In this document: in pieces, positions 7,596 through 34,729 of the stretch
Numbering within the stretch: the first letter of the stretch is position 1
Layout of the letters: each line of letters starts with the position of its first letter
DNA from: Lawsonibacter sp.
Lineage (GTDB): Bacteria; Bacillota; Clostridia; Oscillospirales; Oscillospiraceae
Direction: 5' to 3'
Assembly: GCA_022794495.1 (NCBI GenBank)
Contig: JAAWEX010000003.1
Span: 1 to 34,807, forward strand
DNA length: 34,807 nucleotides
Position numbers and translations under genes: made by a program
Notes under the pieces: model-generated
The model's input: only the letters and a program-made list of their open reading frames with translations
What the model was told of the DNA's origin: nothing
The model's database searches: none

Positions 7596-7812
7596 GCAAG
7601 GCTTGCTTGCGCCTTGGACCGGACGGCAGGGGGGAAAAGCCGGAGCCTTCCAGCACCACGGCGGCGGAGCTGAGCTGCCAGAGGAGGTCCCGGCCGGCGC
7701 ACACCGTCCCCCGGGTCGATGGCCAGCTGGGTGGTGATTCCGCCGGACCTGCCTGCGTCCACATAGCCGGCCTTGGTCAAGCAGCCTCCAGTCCATCGCA
7801 AGGCTCCCTTTG

Positions 7813-8385
7813 TCAGTCCGCGTACTTCACCACACCGCTGCGCCGCAGGGCATGGACCACAGGAATACATACAGTGGTAACAATCACGGTGGTGGCAGCG
7901 CTGGTGGCGAACCGGCCGGGGAGGAAGGGGATGTGGACCATAAACTCGGTGTGATACATCACGCTTTCCAGCCAGATGCTCACGGTGTTGCCCAGGGTGG
8001 TAAGGACGGCCCCGGCGAAGCAGATGGCGTAGCAGGCCGCTGGCCGGCTCTCAATCCGCTTGCCGGTCCGGCGGCACCACACCGCGCCCAGACCCACCAC
8101 CGTGCCGCGGATGGCGGCGGGGGCCACATAGAGCACCGTGGTGGGGGCCAGGCCGTAGGGGCCGGTAATCTGGGCGATAAACTCCCCCAGCAGGCCCACC
8201 GCCATGCCCTCCACCGGGCCGAACAGCATAGCCGCCAGCATGATGGGCAGCGAGGCGAAGTTAAACTTGAAATAAGGGGTTTCAATGGCGATGGTCCGCT
8301 TCAGCAGGACCATTATGGCGGTGAGCATGGCCACCATGCAGATGGTGTAGACTGTTTTTCTTTTCTTTACAGATGTCATAATCAT
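7813..8385 (-). CDS. folT: Folate-family ECF transporter S component
   Basis: MIMTSVKKRKTVYTICMVAMLTAIMVLLKRTIAIETPYFKFNFASLPIMLAAMLFGPVEGMAVGLLGEFIAQI...; preceded by a THF riboswitch, which supports folate specificity. Confidence 0.9.
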   Translation of the reverse strand: MIMTSVKKRKTVYTICMVAMLTAIMVLLKRTIAIETPYFKFNFASLPIMLAAMLFGPVEGMAVGLLGEFIAQITGPYGLAPTTVLYVAPAAIRGTVVGLGAVWCRRTGKRIESRPAACYAICFAGAVLTTLGNTVSIWLESVMYHTEFMVHIPFLPGRFATSAATTVIVTTVCIPVVHALRRSGVVKYAD

Positions 8386-8386
8386 A

Positions 8387-8435
8387 CGCTCCTTTCACGG
8401 CGTGTCGCCATGAAAGGAGCGTACTCCTCCATGGC
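8387..8435 (-). promoter_or_regulatory. Riboswitch expression platform: SD-sequestering hairpin and competing anti-sequestor
   Basis: RNA (minus): CGCUCCUUUCAUGGC-GACAC-GCCGUGAAAGGAGCG masks the AAAGGAG SD (8387-8421); alternative GCCAUG-G-AGGAG-UACG-CUCCU-UU-CAUGGC (8407-8435) overlaps the 3' strand of aptamer P1. Confidence 0.75.
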
Positions 8436-8530
8436 AGCGGATGCGATACAGCAACGCGGGCGCGTGACGCCCTTCGTCCATTGGCAACCTCCCATCCAAT
8501 GGCACTTGACGCGCTGTACCTACTCTGACC
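8433..8530 (-). ncRNA. Tetrahydrofolate (THF) riboswitch aptamer
   Basis: Minus: GGTCAGAGTAGGTACAGCGCGTCAAGTGCCATTGGATGGGAGGTTGCCAATGGACGAAGGGCGTCACGCGCCCGCGTTGCTGTATCGCATCCGCTGCC. Contains the recalled THF consensus blocks AGAGUAG, GCGUYAAGUG, GAUGGGA, ACGAAGGG and GCAUCCGCU, with matching P1 ends. Confidence 0.93.
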
Positions 8531-8542
8531 AGGTGCGGATAT

Positions 8543-9169
8543 TTACATGGATTTCACGACGGTGCTGTAGATATCATCGGCCAGGGGCAGCGCCTTGGCC
8601 AGCAGAGCCTCGCCCTTGGTGCGGTACTCCTCAGCCAGGGCGGTATCCTTCAGGCTGCCGATGTTGATGAGCACATTGAGCCACGCGCCCTGAACAGCGG
8701 CGCGCAGGGACAGGGCAGACACGCCCAGATCGCTGGCGGCACTGTCGTTGGACTTGCCCAAAACGGAGGCGGTGAGCTCCAGGGCTTCCACGGCCAGCTC
8801 CATCATCTCGAGGGGGGGCTTGGTGCAGCCCTTCAGTCCCTCCTGAATGGCTGCGGAGCGGGCGGCCTTCTCCTCCTCGGTGGCCTTTGGCATTCCAAAG
8901 GCGGCGCTGACCGCGTTGAACGCCTCGGTATCCCGCTCCATTACGTCCACAAAGCGGGCTTTCAGGCCGTTGGACTTCTCCAGGACAGACCGGGCCAGCT
9001 CCTCATAGCCGGCGTATTTCTTCTTGCCCACGGTAAGGGAGCAAACCATGGCGGTGAGGGCGGCGCCCAGGGCGCCCTCCAGGGCGGCGGCGGAGCCTCC
9101 GCCGGGGGCAGGGGCGTCGGAGGCCAACAGGTCGGCAAAGCCGGCGGTGGTCAGTTCAGCAAGCTTCAT
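8543..9169 (-). CDS. fchA: Formimidoyl-THF cyclodeaminase / methenyl-THF cyclohydrolase (FchA/FTCD-C family)
   Basis: MKLAELTTAGFADLLASDAPAPGGGSAAALEGALGAALTAMVCSLTVGKKKY...; APGGGSAAA motif. Confidence 0.93.
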   Translation of the reverse strand: MKLAELTTAGFADLLASDAPAPGGGSAAALEGALGAALTAMVCSLTVGKKKYAGYEELARSVLEKSNGLKARFVDVMERDTEAFNAVSAAFGMPKATEEEKAARSAAIQEGLKGCTKPPLEMMELAVEALELTASVLGKSNDSAASDLGVSALSLRAAVQGAWLNVLINIGSLKDTALAEEYRTKGEALLAKALPLADDIYSTVVKSM

Positions 9170-9241: not shown

Positions 9242-10153
9242 TTATTCCATCCCTACCAGGTGGTACTCCAACACCTGATTATAGCAGTCGAAGCTCTCCA
9301 GCTTCAGATAGTGCTCGGCGCAGTCCAGCAGCGCCTTGGCGGGGGTGAGGCCCACCACCTCGCTGCCCACGATATAGGTTCCGTACCGCTCGGCCAGAGA
9401 CTTAATCATCTCATAGACGGTACACAGGGAGGTGTCCTCATAGTTGACCATGTTCATGGACACCTGGGCAATCCCGCGGTCCTCCAGCATGAAGCCCATG
9501 GCCTTGCAGCTGCGGAAGCCTCCGGAGGAGCCGCGGATGACCTTGGCAATCTTCTTTGCGACCTCTACGTCAGAGGTGGCCAGATTCACGTTGAACGCCA
9601 CCAGGGGCATCCGGGCGCCGATAGCGGTGATGCCGGCGGTGGGGTGGATTTTCCGCTCGCCGAAGTCGGGGGCCCATTCGGGCTGGAGCAGCTTCTCAGG
9701 CATACCCTCGAACTGTCCCTTGCGGCAGGCGGCCAGATTGCGGCGCTCAGGGCGGGTGGCGGAGTCCTCATAGAGGAAAGAGGGGATGTGCAGCTCATCC
9801 CAGATGCGCTGGCCCAGCCGCTTGGAGATGGCCACGCACTCCTCCACAGTGACTCCCATGGTAGGGATGAAAGGGATCACATCGGTGGCTCCCATGCGGG
9901 AGTGTTCACCGGTGTGTTTTGTCATGTCGATGACCTCAGCGGCCTTTTTGGCCAGCTGGAAGGCCGCCTCCTCCACCGCCTCGGGGGCGCCGATCATGGT
10001 GAATACGCAGCGGTTGTGGCTGCCGTCGGTCTGGGCGTCGAACAGGGTGCAGCCGGGGATGCTCTTGGCCACCTCCACCAAAGCGCTATAGGCCGCCTCG
10101 TCCTTCTCCTTGCTGCAGCTGAAATTGGGGACGCACTCAACTAATTTTGCCAT
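9242..10153 (-). CDS. ftcD: Glutamate formimidoyltransferase
   Basis: MAKLVECVPNFSCSKEKDEAAYSALVEVAKSIPGCTLFDAQTDGSHNRCVFTMIG...; ATG at 10153 with AGGAGG upstream; track start 10222 is too long. Confidence 0.95.
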   Translation of the reverse strand: MAKLVECVPNFSCSKEKDEAAYSALVEVAKSIPGCTLFDAQTDGSHNRCVFTMIGAPEAVEEAAFQLAKKAAEVIDMTKHTGEHSRMGATDVIPFIPTMGVTVEECVAISKRLGQRIWDELHIPSFLYEDSATRPERRNLAACRKGQFEGMPEKLLQPEWAPDFGERKIHPTAGITAIGARMPLVAFNVNLATSDVEVAKKIAKVIRGSSGGFRSCKAMGFMLEDRGIAQVSMNMVNYEDTSLCTVYEMIKSLAERYGTYIVGSEVVGLTPAKALLDCAEHYLKLESFDCYNQVLEYHLVGME

Positions 10154-10249
10154 TTCAAGTTCCTCCTGATGTATGAATAATGGGGATGCTGTTATTATAC
10201 GGGATGGCGGGAAATACTGCAATGGAAAAGCAAAGGTCTTTGACCCCTT

Positions 10250-11173
10250 TTACTTAATAAAGTTAGCCGCTTGCGTCTGTTTTCCCTCCTGGAGCTGAGA
10301 AGCCAGGGCCAGAAACTGCCGCACACAGCCGGCATGATGGGGGTCGTTGTTCCACAGAAGGATGGGATAGGACATGGGAGAAAATTCCAGAACAGGCTTG
10401 GTGTAGACGGCGGAGCCGGGGCAGGTTTTCCCGATGGAGCGGGGCAGAAAGCCCACGCCAAAGCCGGCCAGGATCATTTGCAGCTCCATGGGGGTGTCAT
10501 AGCACTGGCAGACCACGTTGGGGGCAAAGCCCGCCCGGTGGCACTCGGCCACCAGACCCCGGCTGTAGTCCCACAAATCGTCGTTGCCCAGCAGGCACAT
10601 AGGCACATCCCGCAGGGCCTGGATGGGAACAGCGTCCTGTCCCGGAGCCGGGTCGGTCTCGGGGCACATGACCAGCTCCAGAGGGTCCTCCCCCAGGACC
10701 TGCTCTTTCAGGTTATAGGGCCGCCTTGACTGATCCCGGAGAAACAGGACATGAAGGTCCCGCCGCCACAGGTCCTCCAGCAGGTCATCAGGGGACCCCA
10801 TGCGGACGTACAGGTCCACCTTTGGAAACCGCTGGTGATACTCTTTTATCAGTTGAGTGGCGATGAGGGCGGTGGAATAGATGACCCCGACCCGCAGCTG
10901 CCCCCGCACCCCTGTGTCCATCTCCCGGACGCTTTCCGCCATAGCCCGCAGGTTGTAGAACATCTCCTGACTGTGCTGATACAGGCACTGCCCCGCCTCG
11001 GTCAGTTCAATGCCCCGGTTGTTGCGCAGAAACAGGCACACCCCAAGCTCGTCCTCCAGCAGGGCCAGCTGCCGGCTGATGGGGGGCTGAGCCACATGGA
11101 GCACCCGAGATGCCCCCGAGATGCTCCCCTCCTCCGCCGCCGCCGCGAAATATTCAAGCTGCTTAAAATTCAT
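10250..11173 (-). CDS. LysR-family transcriptional regulator
   Basis: MNFKQLEYFAAAAEEGSISGASRVLHVAQPPISRQLALLEDELGVCLFLRNNRGIELTEAGQ; start 11173 with GGAGG upstream. Confidence 0.95.
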   Translation of the reverse strand: MNFKQLEYFAAAAEEGSISGASRVLHVAQPPISRQLALLEDELGVCLFLRNNRGIELTEAGQCLYQHSQEMFYNLRAMAESVREMDTGVRGQLRVGVIYSTALIATQLIKEYHQRFPKVDLYVRMGSPDDLLEDLWRRDLHVLFLRDQSRRPYNLKEQVLGEDPLELVMCPETDPAPGQDAVPIQALRDVPMCLLGNDDLWDYSRGLVAECHRAGFAPNVVCQCYDTPMELQMILAGFGVGFLPRSIGKTCPGSAVYTKPVLEFSPMSYPILLWNNDPHHAGCVRQFLALASQLQEGKQTQAANFIK

Positions 11174-11218
11174 GGTGATTTTCCTCCAATCTTTGCCTCG
11201 AAAAAATGCTATACCGCT

Positions 11219-11239
11219 ATTGTATATCAAATATACAAT
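11219..11239. promoter_or_regulatory. Candidate LysR-type operator
   Basis: Perfect 9-bp dyad ATTGTATAT-CAA-ATATACAAT in the divergent lysR/hutU region, 46 bp upstream of lysR; contains a T-N11-A arrangement. Confidence 0.65.
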
Positions 11240-11447: not shown

Positions 11448-13457
11448 ATGAATCTGGAAGAAGCCATGACTGTCAAATTAGACTATGACCTGCCCGCGTA
11501 CCCCCGCTTTGAAGCGGGCTGCCGCCGGGCGCCCCACAGGGAATCCCATCTGTCCCAGGCGGACAAGGTCCTGGCTGTCAAGAACGCCCTGCGGTATATC
11601 CACCCCGACCACCACGAGCAGATGGCCAGGGAGTTCGCCCGGGAGCTGGAGGAGCACGGCCGCATCTACGGCTACCGGTTCCGTCCTGCCGGCAAGCTGT
11701 ATGGAAAGCCCATTGAGGAGTATAAAGGCCGGTGCATCGAGGCCAAAGCCTTTCAGGTGATGATCGACAACAACCTGGATTTCGATATCGCCCTGTACCC
11801 CTATGAATTGGTCACCTACGGTGAGACCGGCCAAGTCTGCCAGAACTGGATGCAGTACCGGCTGATTAAGAAATACCTGGAGATTATGACCGACGAGCAG
11901 ACCCTGGTGGTCATGTCCGGCCACCCCCTGGGCCTGTTCCACAGCCACAGGCTGGCCCCCCGGTGCATCATCTCCAACGGCCTGATGGTGGGGGCCTATG
12001 ACGACCAGAAGGATTTTAACCGGGCCGCCGCCATCGGCGTGGCCAACTATGGCCAGATGACCGCAGGCGGCTGGATGTACATCGGCCCCCAGGGCATCGT
12101 TCACGGCACGTTCAACACCCTGCTCAACGCCGGCCGGTTGAAGCTGGGCATCCCGGCGGACGGCAACCTGGCCGGCCGGCTGTTCATCTCCGCCGGGCTG
12201 GGCGGCATGTCGGGCGCCCAGGGCAAGGCCGCCGAGATCGCCGGGGCCGCCTCCATCGTCGCGGAGGTGGACGACTCCCGCATTGAGACCCGCTATAGTC
12301 AGGGCTGGGTGAGCCACCGCACCGGCGAGCTGGCCGAGGCCGTGAAAATTGCCCAAGAGCACCAGGCCGCCGGGAAGCCCTGCGCCGTGGCCTACCACGG
12401 CAACATTGTAGACCTGCTGGAGTATGTCTGCGACCACGGCATCCATGTGGACCTGCTGTCCGATCAGACCTCCTGCCACGTCCCCTACGACGGAGGCTAC
12501 TGTCCCCAGGGCCTGAGCTTCGAGCAGCGTACCAGGATGCTGGACGAGGACCCCGAGCAGTTCGCCAGGCTGGTGGATAAGACCCTCCAGCACCACTATG
12601 AGCTGGTGTGCAGGCTCCACGACAGGGGCACCTACTTCTTCGACTACGGAAACGCCTTCCTCAAGGCCGTATACGACACGGGGATCAAGTCCATCTGCAA
12701 GAACGGCGAGAACGATCTGGACGGTTTTGTCTTTCCCTCCTACGTAGAGGACATTCTCGGCCCCTGCCTGTTTGACTACGGCTACGGCCCCTTCCGCTGG
12801 TGCTGCCTGTCCCGAAATCCCGAAGATTTGCACAGGACGGATGCGGCGGCGGCCGAGTATATCAAGGCCCACAACCGCCGCCACCAGGACTATGACAACT
12901 ATGTCTGGGTCCGGGACGCCGAGAAAAACAGGATGGTAGTGGGCACTCAGTGCCGCATCCTCTATCAGGATGCCATGGGCCGTATGAACATTGCGCTGAA
13001 GTTCAACGACATGGTCCGCAGGGGGGAGATTGGCCCCGTCATGCTGGGCCGGGACCACCACGACACCGGCGGCACCGATGCGCCGTTCCGTGAGACCTCC
13101 AACATCAAGGATGGCTCCAACATCATGGCTGAGATGGCCACCCAGTGCTACGCAGGCAATGCCGCCCGGGGCATGAGCCTCATCGCCCTGCACAATGGCG
13201 GGGGCACCGGCGTTGGCAAGGCCATCAACGGCGGCTTCGGCATGGTGCTGGACGGCTCTGAGCGGGTGGATACCATCCTGCGCATGTCCATGCCCTGGGA
13301 TGTGATGGTGGGAGTATCCCGCCGGGCCTGGGCCAGGAATGAGAATGCCCTGACCACCGCCGCCGAATACAACAAGCTCTACGCAGGACAGGACCACATC
13401 ACGCTGCCCTATCTCAGCGACGATGATCTGGTCCGGAAGGCCTTGCTGGGGGAGTAA
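11448..13457 (+). CDS. hutU: Urocanate hydratase
   Basis: 669 aa; VVMSGHPLGLFHSHRLAPRCIISNGLMVG, YGQMTAGGWMYIGPQGIVHGTFNT, GRLFISAGLGGMSGAQGKA, SDQTSCHVPYDGGY, LHNGGGTGVGKAINGGFGMVLDG. Confidence 0.97.
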   Translation: MNLEEAMTVKLDYDLPAYPRFEAGCRRAPHRESHLSQADKVLAVKNALRYIHPDHHEQMAREFARELEEHGRIYGYRFRPAGKLYGKPIEEYKGRCIEAKAFQVMIDNNLDFDIALYPYELVTYGETGQVCQNWMQYRLIKKYLEIMTDEQTLVVMSGHPLGLFHSHRLAPRCIISNGLMVGAYDDQKDFNRAAAIGVANYGQMTAGGWMYIGPQGIVHGTFNTLLNAGRLKLGIPADGNLAGRLFISAGLGGMSGAQGKAAEIAGAASIVAEVDDSRIETRYSQGWVSHRTGELAEAVKIAQEHQAAGKPCAVAYHGNIVDLLEYVCDHGIHVDLLSDQTSCHVPYDGGYCPQGLSFEQRTRMLDEDPEQFARLVDKTLQHHYELVCRLHDRGTYFFDYGNAFLKAVYDTGIKSICKNGENDLDGFVFPSYVEDILGPCLFDYGYGPFRWCCLSRNPEDLHRTDAAAAEYIKAHNRRHQDYDNYVWVRDAEKNRMVVGTQCRILYQDAMGRMNIALKFNDMVRRGEIGPVMLGRDHHDTGGTDAPFRETSNIKDGSNIMAEMATQCYAGNAARGMSLIALHNGGGTGVGKAINGGFGMVLDGSERVDTILRMSMPWDVMVGVSRRAWARNENALTTAAEYNKLYAGQDHITLPYLSDDDLVRKALLGE

Positions 13458-13505: not shown

Positions 13506-14720
13506 ATGAGATTGACAGAACAGGAACAGGCCATGCTGAACGGCGAATTCGGCCCCGGCTTCGCCCGGGCGATGCGGGTGCTGGTGGGGATTGGCAAGGC
13601 CTTTGGGGCCCAGCGTATGGTGCCCATCAGCCGGGGACACATCTCACTGAGCAACCAGGAGGGGGATCTCTGGTTTGTCTCCCAAATGCTGGAGGAGGGG
13701 GCGCACTGCCGGGTACCGCCCACGGTAAACCCGGCCTATGACTACGAGTATTTCAAAACAGTGTCTCAGCTGGACGGGGAGAATGAGCGTATTCTGAAGA
13801 GCACCATCGACGTATACCGAAAGCTGGGAGCTGTCCTGACGTTTGACTGTACTCCGTTCTTTGAGAACAATGTTCCCCGCTTCGGGGAGATATGTTCTTT
13901 CTCCGCCTCTGGCGGTGCAGTATATGTCAACTCCGTCCTGGGGGCCCGCTCCAACCGGGAAGCCGCCCAGAGCGCCATGTGCGCCGCCATCACCGGTGTC
14001 ACCCCGGAGTACGGCCTGCTGCTGAAGGAGAATCGGGCCGGCGATGTACTGATCCGGGTGGAGGCTGACGCAGCTACCGAGTATGACTACGAGCTGCTGG
14101 GCTACTGCACCCCGAAGAAGATGGGCCAGGCCTATCACCAGCCCGTGTTTGAGGGGCTGAGCCCCCAAACCACGGCGGAGCAGCTCATGAACCTGGGCAC
14201 TCAGCTGAATGTCCACGGCATCGTCCCCATGTTCCATGTAGCGGGGGTGACCCCGGAGGCCCCGGATGTGGAGACCGCGTTCCAGGGCCGGAAAGACTAC
14301 CCGGTGGTCACCGTCACCGACGAGGACCTGGCCCAGGCCAGGCGGGAGATTTCCGCAGGCGCGGGCAAGGCGGACTTCTGCATCCTGGGCTGTCCCCATC
14401 TGACCATCGGCCAAGTGGGCTCCATTGCCGCCATGCTGGAGGGACAGAAGCTGGCCGGCCAGCTGTATATCTTTACCTCCACCTCCACCCGGGAGCTGGC
14501 CCGGCGGATGGGTTATCTGGATGTTATCCACGCTGCCGGCGGCGAAATCGTCATCAACAGCTGTGTGGACCAGCCCTGCTGGTCCCACCTGAACGGGATG
14601 AGCGGCGTCACCGAGTCCCCCAAGTGCGCCTATTACACCAAGCGCTGGAACATGGCCTTTACGGTCAAGAGCATACCTGCCTGTATCCAGTCTGTGCTGA
14701 AGGGAGAGATCGTAGAATGA
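13506..14720 (+). CDS. Aconitase X catalytic (large) subunit, AcnX type II
   Basis: MRLTEQEQAMLNGEFGPGFARAMRVLVGIGKAFGAQRMVPISRGHIS...FDCTPFFENNVPRFGEICSFSASGGAVYVNSVLGARSNRE...ILGCPHLTIGQV...INSCVDQPCW; AcnX (DUF521) motifs with candidate cluster cysteines. Confidence 0.9.
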   Translation: MRLTEQEQAMLNGEFGPGFARAMRVLVGIGKAFGAQRMVPISRGHISLSNQEGDLWFVSQMLEEGAHCRVPPTVNPAYDYEYFKTVSQLDGENERILKSTIDVYRKLGAVLTFDCTPFFENNVPRFGEICSFSASGGAVYVNSVLGARSNREAAQSAMCAAITGVTPEYGLLLKENRAGDVLIRVEADAATEYDYELLGYCTPKKMGQAYHQPVFEGLSPQTTAEQLMNLGTQLNVHGIVPMFHVAGVTPEAPDVETAFQGRKDYPVVTVTDEDLAQARREISAGAGKADFCILGCPHLTIGQVGSIAAMLEGQKLAGQLYIFTSTSTRELARRMGYLDVIHAAGGEIVINSCVDQPCWSHLNGMSGVTESPKCAYYTKRWNMAFTVKSIPACIQSVLKGEIVE

Positions 14721-16688: not shown

Positions 16689-17912
16689 ATGGAACGATTG
16701 CTGATAACCAATATCGGCATACTGGCCACTCCTTTGGGGACCGGCCCCAGGAAAGGTCCGGACCAGGGGAAGATTAAACTATTAAAAGACGCCTGGGTCC
16801 TGATGGAGGATGGCGTGATTGTCCATGTGGGAACCGGCCCCGCCCCGGCGGCAGACAGTGTGATCGACGCCCAGGGGAGCCTTGTGACCCCAGGACTGGT
16901 AGACGCCCACACCCATCTGATTTTCGGCGGCTGGCGGCAGAATGAATTGGGGCTGAAGCTCCGCGGCAAGACATATCTGGAAATTCAGAACGGCGGAGGC
17001 GGCATCCAGTCCACCACCAACGCCACCCGTCAGGCCACGGAGGAGGAGCTGACCCGGAAGGCCGCCCAGGCGTTGGACGAGATGATGAGCTTCGGCGTTA
17101 CCACATGCGAGGCCAAGAGCGGCTATGGCCTTGCCACCGAGCACGAGCTGAAGGCCCTGCAGGTGATCGAAAACCTGAGCCGCCGCCACCCTATGGACAT
17201 TGTTCCCACTTTCATGGGCGCCCATCTGGTGCCCGCCGAGTACAAGCAGGACCGGGAGGCCTATATCCGCCTGGTCTGTGAGGAGATGATACCCAAGGTA
17301 AAGGAGCAGGGCATCGCCCGATACTGCGACGTGTTCTGCGAGGCGGACACCTTCACGGTGGAGGAGTCCCGCCGCATTCTGGAGGCGGGCAGGCAATACG
17401 GTCTGATCCCCAAAATCCACGCAGACGAAATCGAGGCCATCGGCGGCTCTCAGCTGGCCGAAGAGGTCGGCGCCATCTCCGCCGAGCACCTTATTGTCTG
17501 CCCCCCCGAGGGGATTGCCAGCCTGGCCAGGGGCGGCGTCATCGCCTGCCTCCTCCCCGCCACCAGCTTCTACCTGGGGGCCGGCTTTGCCCCTGCCCGG
17601 GATATGGTAAGCGCCGGGGTCCCCGTGGCCATGGCTACCGACTTCAATCCCGGGTCCTGCCCCTGCCTCAACCTGCAATTTGTCATCAACCTTGGGTGCC
17701 TGAAGTATAAGCTTACCCCGGAGGAGGTTCTAACCGCCGTCACCCTCAACGCCGCCGCCGCCATCGGCCTGGCGGACAAGGTGGGCTCTGTGGAGCCGGG
17801 CAAGCAGGGCGATCTGGTGATCTGGAAGGCTCCCGACCTGGACTACATCTGCTACCGTATGGGGAGCAGTCTGGTCAAAACCGTTGTGAAAAAAGGCGTG
17901 GTGGTGGACTGA
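16689..17912 (+). CDS. hutI: Imidazolonepropionase
   Basis: VTPGLVDAHTHLIFGGWRQNELGLKLRGKTYLEIQNGGGGIQSTTNATR...AKSGYGLATEHELKALQV...ATDFNPGSCPCLNLQFVINLGC. Confidence 0.97.
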   Translation: MERLLITNIGILATPLGTGPRKGPDQGKIKLLKDAWVLMEDGVIVHVGTGPAPAADSVIDAQGSLVTPGLVDAHTHLIFGGWRQNELGLKLRGKTYLEIQNGGGGIQSTTNATRQATEEELTRKAAQALDEMMSFGVTTCEAKSGYGLATEHELKALQVIENLSRRHPMDIVPTFMGAHLVPAEYKQDREAYIRLVCEEMIPKVKEQGIARYCDVFCEADTFTVEESRRILEAGRQYGLIPKIHADEIEAIGGSQLAEEVGAISAEHLIVCPPEGIASLARGGVIACLLPATSFYLGAGFAPARDMVSAGVPVAMATDFNPGSCPCLNLQFVINLGCLKYKLTPEEVLTAVTLNAAAAIGLADKVGSVEPGKQGDLVIWKAPDLDYICYRMGSSLVKTVVKKGVVVD

Positions 17913-34477: not shown

Positions 34478-34639
34478 TTGAAGTTCCTCCTTTTGTTCTT
34501 TGAGAAAATATTCCTCTTATTTAGGATATCCCAATCAAGAGAGAAAATCAAGGTTATATCAAAAATTCATAAGTGCAAGATTGCTTTCTCCGCTCCCTTG
34601 ACTTTCCTCTTGACTCAAGAACTGTAAGAAGCGGCAAAC

Positions 34640-34676
34640 GCCCCGGATTTTGTGCTAGAATCCGGGGCATTTTTTA
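34640..34676 (+). terminator. Rho-independent terminator with no obvious upstream plus-strand gene
   Basis: GCCCCGGATT (34640-34649) / AATCCGGGGC (34659-34668) followed by ATTTTTTAT. Confidence 0.85.
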
Positions 34677-34729
34677 TGTTTAACCGCACTTTTCCGCACG
34701 CTTTGCCAAATTCCGCCCGTCTTGACCCG

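Follow-up and report, generated by a model that had tools for sequence, protein, structure and literature searches.

How is folate import governed when the gene for the importer follows genes of histidine degradation? The question is raised by the minus strand of a 34,807-nucleotide stretch of Lawsonibacter sp. DNA (contig JAAWEX010000003.1, positions 1 to 34,807; the whole stretch is called the window), in which the folate transport gene folT lies directly behind a THF riboswitch. The riboswitch class is already known, reportedly from the work of Ames et al. 2010 and Trausch et al. 2011, and the window copy is a new member of it in an unusual operon setting. THF-I riboswitches control folT, folC, and folE in Firmicutes, with a switching sequence that joins the aptamer to the expression platform and with regulation that depends on the pseudoknot site (PMC9881143). 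N5-substituted folates bind to the aptamer (PMC6800512), and P1 is stabilised upon ligand binding (PMC11477058).

The aptamer and its operon

A first-pass annotation had read a THF riboswitch with a translational switch from the sequence, placing the aptamer at 8433-8530 and proposing a search with the Rfam THF model. This search returned a significant, full-length match to RF01831 (model positions 1-99 of 99; gathering score 36 bits), the sole above-threshold RNA family match across the window, which confirmed the identity and the 8433 end and moved the other end, set one base too far, to 8529. Alignment to the model showed that the core blocks AGAGUAG, AAGUGCC, GGGA.GUUG, GGACGAA, and GCAUCCGCU are all present. 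A permissive RNA-family scan of the window added one item, a sub-threshold ylbH leader at 34573-34677 on the minus strand (27.4 of 50 bits). The aptamer and the genes around it are as follows.

7612-7801, minus strand: hutD remnant, frameshifted and truncated, directly after folT (tblastn E about 3e-9 in two frames)
7813-8379, minus strand: folT, ECF folate-family S component (TIGR04518, 80.7 bits, cut-off 60), start at the likelier second ATG
8433-8529, minus strand: THF-I (RF01831) aptamer (79.5 bits, E 6.2e-17)
8543-9169, minus strand: fchA-like methenyl-THF cyclohydrolase / formimino-THF cyclodeaminase gene (PF04961, 219.9 bits; NF045657, 201 bits, under the 275 cut-off)
9242-10153, minus strand: ftcD, glutamate formimidoyltransferase (TIGR02024, 396.6 bits)
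10194-10222, minus strand: candidate operon promoter, TTGCAG-17-TATAAT
10250-11230, minus strand: LysR-family regulator gene, a conserved neighbour
11448-13457, plus strand: hutU, urocanate hydratase, divergent (TIGR01228, 431 bits)
13506-14720, plus strand: aconitase-X-like gene (PF04412), between hutU and a sodium:solute symporter gene
16689-17912, plus strand: hutI, imidazolonepropionase (TIGR01224, 467 bits)

The aptamer thus sits between an fchA-like gene and folT, as first described. A folT start at 8385 did not survive comparison and is judged unlikely: that ATG is missing in the second genomic copy and in most relatives, in which the ATG follows GGAG by about 9 nt, so that 8379 is the more likely start. 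The stop codon of fchA lies 13 nt ahead of the aptamer, and a scan of the window sequence found no credible promoter or terminator in this gap. A promoter of folT's own was rejected on account of the gap length and because the sole promoter-like match overlaps the Shine-Dalgarno (SD) sequence and the start codon. A TTGC...TATAAT element ahead of ftcD is kept in the window and in most close relatives, and the transcript reaching folT probably starts there. The first-pass annotation had proposed that folT is controlled separately from the folate-consuming enzymes; the riboswitch does precede folT, but folT appears on the ftcD-fchA transcript and therefore would be under both controls, not simply separate.

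FtcD transfers the formimino group from histidine to THF, and in histidine degradation FtcD and FchA load one-carbon units onto THF. With the LysR gene, hutU, and hutI beside ftcD and fchA, the setting of the switch is a locus for histidine utilisation, in which hutI-hutU diverge from LysR-ftcD-fchA-aptamer-folT, an arrangement conserved in the genus; the description of the upstream genes as folate-consuming enzymes was half the story, and the locus is no general folate operon. The order on the divergent side is hutU, aconitase-X-like gene, sodium:solute symporter, and hutI, and the aconitase-X-like protein of the window had no match in the neighbourhoods of 15 relatives. Comparison of 15 longer neighbourhoods revealed that the order LysR-ftcD-fchA-aptamer-folT-hutD-folC, opposite a divergent hutU and hutI, is largely preserved; the exceptions are one neighbourhood without a LysR match and hutD, two that carry a terminator version of the aptamer before hutD, and one contig that ends before hutU. 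Profile searches of the window genome, which is 70% complete, found neither an intact HutD (PF05962) nor a histidine ammonia-lyase (PF00221), so that the first step of histidine utilisation is unaccounted for in this genome. Since relatives keep intact hutD and folC after folT, a rearrangement is suggested in the window, next to an FtsX-like gene on the plus strand.

The hutD remnant, the absence downstream of the folC that is present in 15 of 15 relatives, and a second intact folT-folC unit elsewhere in the genome (L097) would all fit a decayed or constitutively OFF leader, with an intact aptamer in a degenerating operon. However, no damage is seen in the aptamer, in either hairpin of the platform, or in the folT frame, and their scores resemble those in relatives; we consider decay very improbable.

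Two mutually exclusive hairpins and a mismatched P1

The following segments, which include both hairpins that the first-pass annotation had described, exist exactly in the sequence at and around 8387-8435.

8525-8529, minus strand: P1 5' strand, GUCAG, with U at the second position opposite C, a conserved mismatch
8433-8437, minus strand: P1 3' strand, CUGCC, whose GCC also begins the anti-sequestor
8424-8435, minus strand: anti-sequestor 5' arm, GCCAUGGAGGAG
8407-8421, minus strand: shared middle strand, CGCUCCUUUCAUGGC, the sequestor 5' arm; its 8407-8419 portion, CUCCUUUCAUGGC, is the anti-sequestor 3' arm
8387-8401, minus strand: sequestor 3' arm, GCCGUGAAAGGAGCG, carrying the SD (core GGAG, 8389-8392)

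In the anti-sequestor, GCCAUGGAGGAG pairs with CUCCUUUCAUGGC; in the sequestor, CGCUCCUUUCAUGGC pairs with GCCGUGAAAGGAGCG and the SD is hidden. The two helices are mutually exclusive, one masking the SD and the other overlapping P1, as in a translational OFF switch with an anti-sequestor. None of 200 dinucleotide-shuffled spacers matched the strength of the sequestor (z 7.1) together with a P1-overlapping anti-sequestor (z 4.1), and the minimum-energy fold of 8370-8530, which includes the SD-hiding hairpin, had a z of -4.6 against shuffles. In an alignment of 28 platforms, 94.3% of the anti-sequestor cells were paired with 6 double changes (0/500 shuffles) and 89.7% of the sequestor cells with 10 double changes (1/500 shuffles), counts that are modest because the platform sequences are close and highly conserved, with shuffle tests inflated by related sequences and a sequestor count lowered by the poor alignment of terminator-type and SD-type platforms beyond the loop. 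When partners were shifted by one to three columns, pairing fell to 38-57%. The same arrangement, a sequestor overlapped by an anti-sequestor that draws on the P1 strand, recurs in 76 of 87 testable leaders when all platform types are counted, despite differing sequences.

The sequence after 8387 supports a translational platform. Intrinsic attenuation, with the sequestor hairpin acting as a terminator, would resemble the six same-platform relatives in which a hairpin is followed by a U-run before hutD; in the window, however, the hairpin is followed by UAUGAUUAUG without a U-run, no terminator-like site was found after it, and the start codon lies 9 nt past GGAG. A terminator reading of the window copy was rejected on the missing U-run, and we give attenuation hardly any weight.

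The overlap of the anti-sequestor GCC with the P1 3' strand stands as first noted, but its three bases are not all paired in P1, since the middle C faces U8528. Four of the five P1 pairs can form in the window, and P1 contributes only about 1.4 kcal/mol in the model (OFF versus OFF with P1). The second-pair mismatch recurs in 34 of 35 relatives with the window-type platform (type A), where the 5' strand base opposite C is A in 17, U in 14, C in 3, and G in 1; in the one locus with G (L058), the mismatch falls at position 1 instead. Platforms with the CUGCCGCA junction (type B) have a perfect P1 in 23/23. The occurrence of three different non-pairing letters hints at selection for a weak P1 in type A, and shared ancestry may explain part of the pattern.

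The same cassette in relatives

The aptamer was found in 224 of 301 genomes in a family sample and in 58 of 61 in the genus, which holds 64 genomes. Over half of the genus aptamers (35/68) share the platform CUGCCAUG..CUCCUUUCAUGGC..GCCGUGAAAGGAG, and when 401 family genomes were scanned for the exact pattern, the CUGCCAUG junction turned up only in the genus. An FchA-like gene lies directly upstream in 33 of these 35 same-platform loci, although it is only 35-38% identical in three of them. The aptamer precedes folT in 29 of the loci; in the other six, the terminator hairpin with its U-run stands before hutD (HutD confirmed), and three of these six continue with folC, a second THF aptamer, and then folT. 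In L063, L078, L079, and L123, a single operon contains two THF riboswitches, one of the terminator type ahead of hutD-folC and one of the SD type ahead of folT. The window genome itself holds two THF aptamers; the second, on another contig (L002 / L097), has the same platform and is located before a folT paralogue (53% identical) and folC, after a gene that we take to be fhs-like from its C-terminal sequence, not from a family search.

Energetics and a proposed switching mechanism

Folding calculations indicated that, without ligand, the SD-hidden state is preferred by 14.7 kcal/mol in the full window leader (about 13-15) and by 7-16 kcal/mol in eleven relatives. The first-pass annotation had predicted that ligand favours SD sequestration. 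The predicted direction is retained, as the anti-sequestor takes the P1 3' strand and ligand should therefore mean OFF, but the equilibrium picture is not, the SD-hidden state being the modelled ground state without ligand. An equilibrium riboswitch, in which ligand shifts the balance of the two hairpins on the finished mRNA, is the standard textbook picture and would suit mutually exclusive helices; with preferences of this size, however, an mRNA at equilibrium would never leave the OFF state, and we regard this reading as unlikely. Because the OFF hairpin is strongly favoured even without ligand, control has to be kinetic, and from the modelled folds we infer a toehold-type OFF switch decided by a race during transcription.

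In folds of the growing transcript, the anti-sequestor was the best structure at lengths of about 28 to 40 nt beyond the aptamer, and the sequestor took its place from 44 nt onward. In the nearest-neighbour model, which has the pseudoknot, Mg2+, ligand, and real transcription speed outside it and in which three extra G-C pairs on any helix raise such barriers, a barrier of 9-10 kcal/mol stands in the way of OFF while the GCC-GGC clamp is formed. The value drops to 3.1 when P1 closes and thereby takes away this three-pair G-C clamp of the anti-sequestor. Among 27 relatives, the mean barrier fell from 10.9 to 3.4 kcal/mol once the P1 strand was taken, with a drop in 25 of them; the two without a drop are the second copy in the window genome (L002) and L044.

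In the proposed kinetic mechanism, P1 and the anti-sequestor would contest the same GCC as RNA polymerase leaves the aptamer. Without ligand, P1, weak with its four pairs and one mismatch, would lose the GCC, and the full anti-sequestor would close with its G-C clamp and delay the later-made SD strand, allowing ribosome loading (ON). With THF or N5-substituted THF bound, P1 would keep the GCC and the GGC of the middle strand would be left free as a toehold, at which the SD strand would rapidly displace the shortened anti-sequestor (OFF). With transcription probably beginning at the ftcD promoter, folT would be expressed in cells that are short of folate and have the histidine-degradation operon switched on. 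We consider it quite probable that the THF-I riboswitch within the ftcD-fchA-folT transcript lowers FolT translation when reduced folates are plentiful.

The window switch shares with folT-associated THF-I riboswitches of Firmicutes the full-length aptamer, the folT association, and the predicted OFF logic via P1 stabilisation, and it differs in its place inside a histidine-degradation operon and in a platform type with the conserved P1 second-pair mismatch. By analogy only, it resembles the ZTP riboswitch, in which the outcome likewise hinges on an invading strand that displaces an earlier helix in transcription; ligand-gated strand displacement is attributed to that riboswitch in the citing passage of PMC13273304 (Strobel et al. 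2019). However, the ZTP riboswitch has another aptamer and ligand and is transcriptional, whereas the window switch appears translational. THF-II (the folE motif) is also a THF-sensing translational OFF switch (PMC9881143), but its aptamer is unrelated and its SD lies within P1 itself, so it is not a relative of the window switch. Four THF-I leaders of the family (L007, L015, L019, and L027), in which the P1 3' strand continues into the SD (CUGGAGGU) and the start codon lies 9-11 nt further, may work by direct SD occlusion at P1, as in THF-II. A literature search outside the original THF-I papers found none that links a THF riboswitch to hut genes, and the novelty of the gene association is provisional.

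With 27 distinct, closely similar SD-type platforms and six terminator versions of one cassette, the genus offers a natural collection in which to ask whether a translational riboswitch is governed by kinetics or by equilibrium. We tentatively propose, at somewhat less than even confidence, a THF-I lineage in which a conserved mismatch maintains a weak P1, a toehold race in transcription decides between the clamp helix and P1, and one cassette is swapped between an SD-hiding output at folT and a terminator output at hutD, tying folate supply to histidine degradation. The setting suggests a metabolic logic, in that FtcD loads THF and the same transcript would yield folate import only when folate is short.
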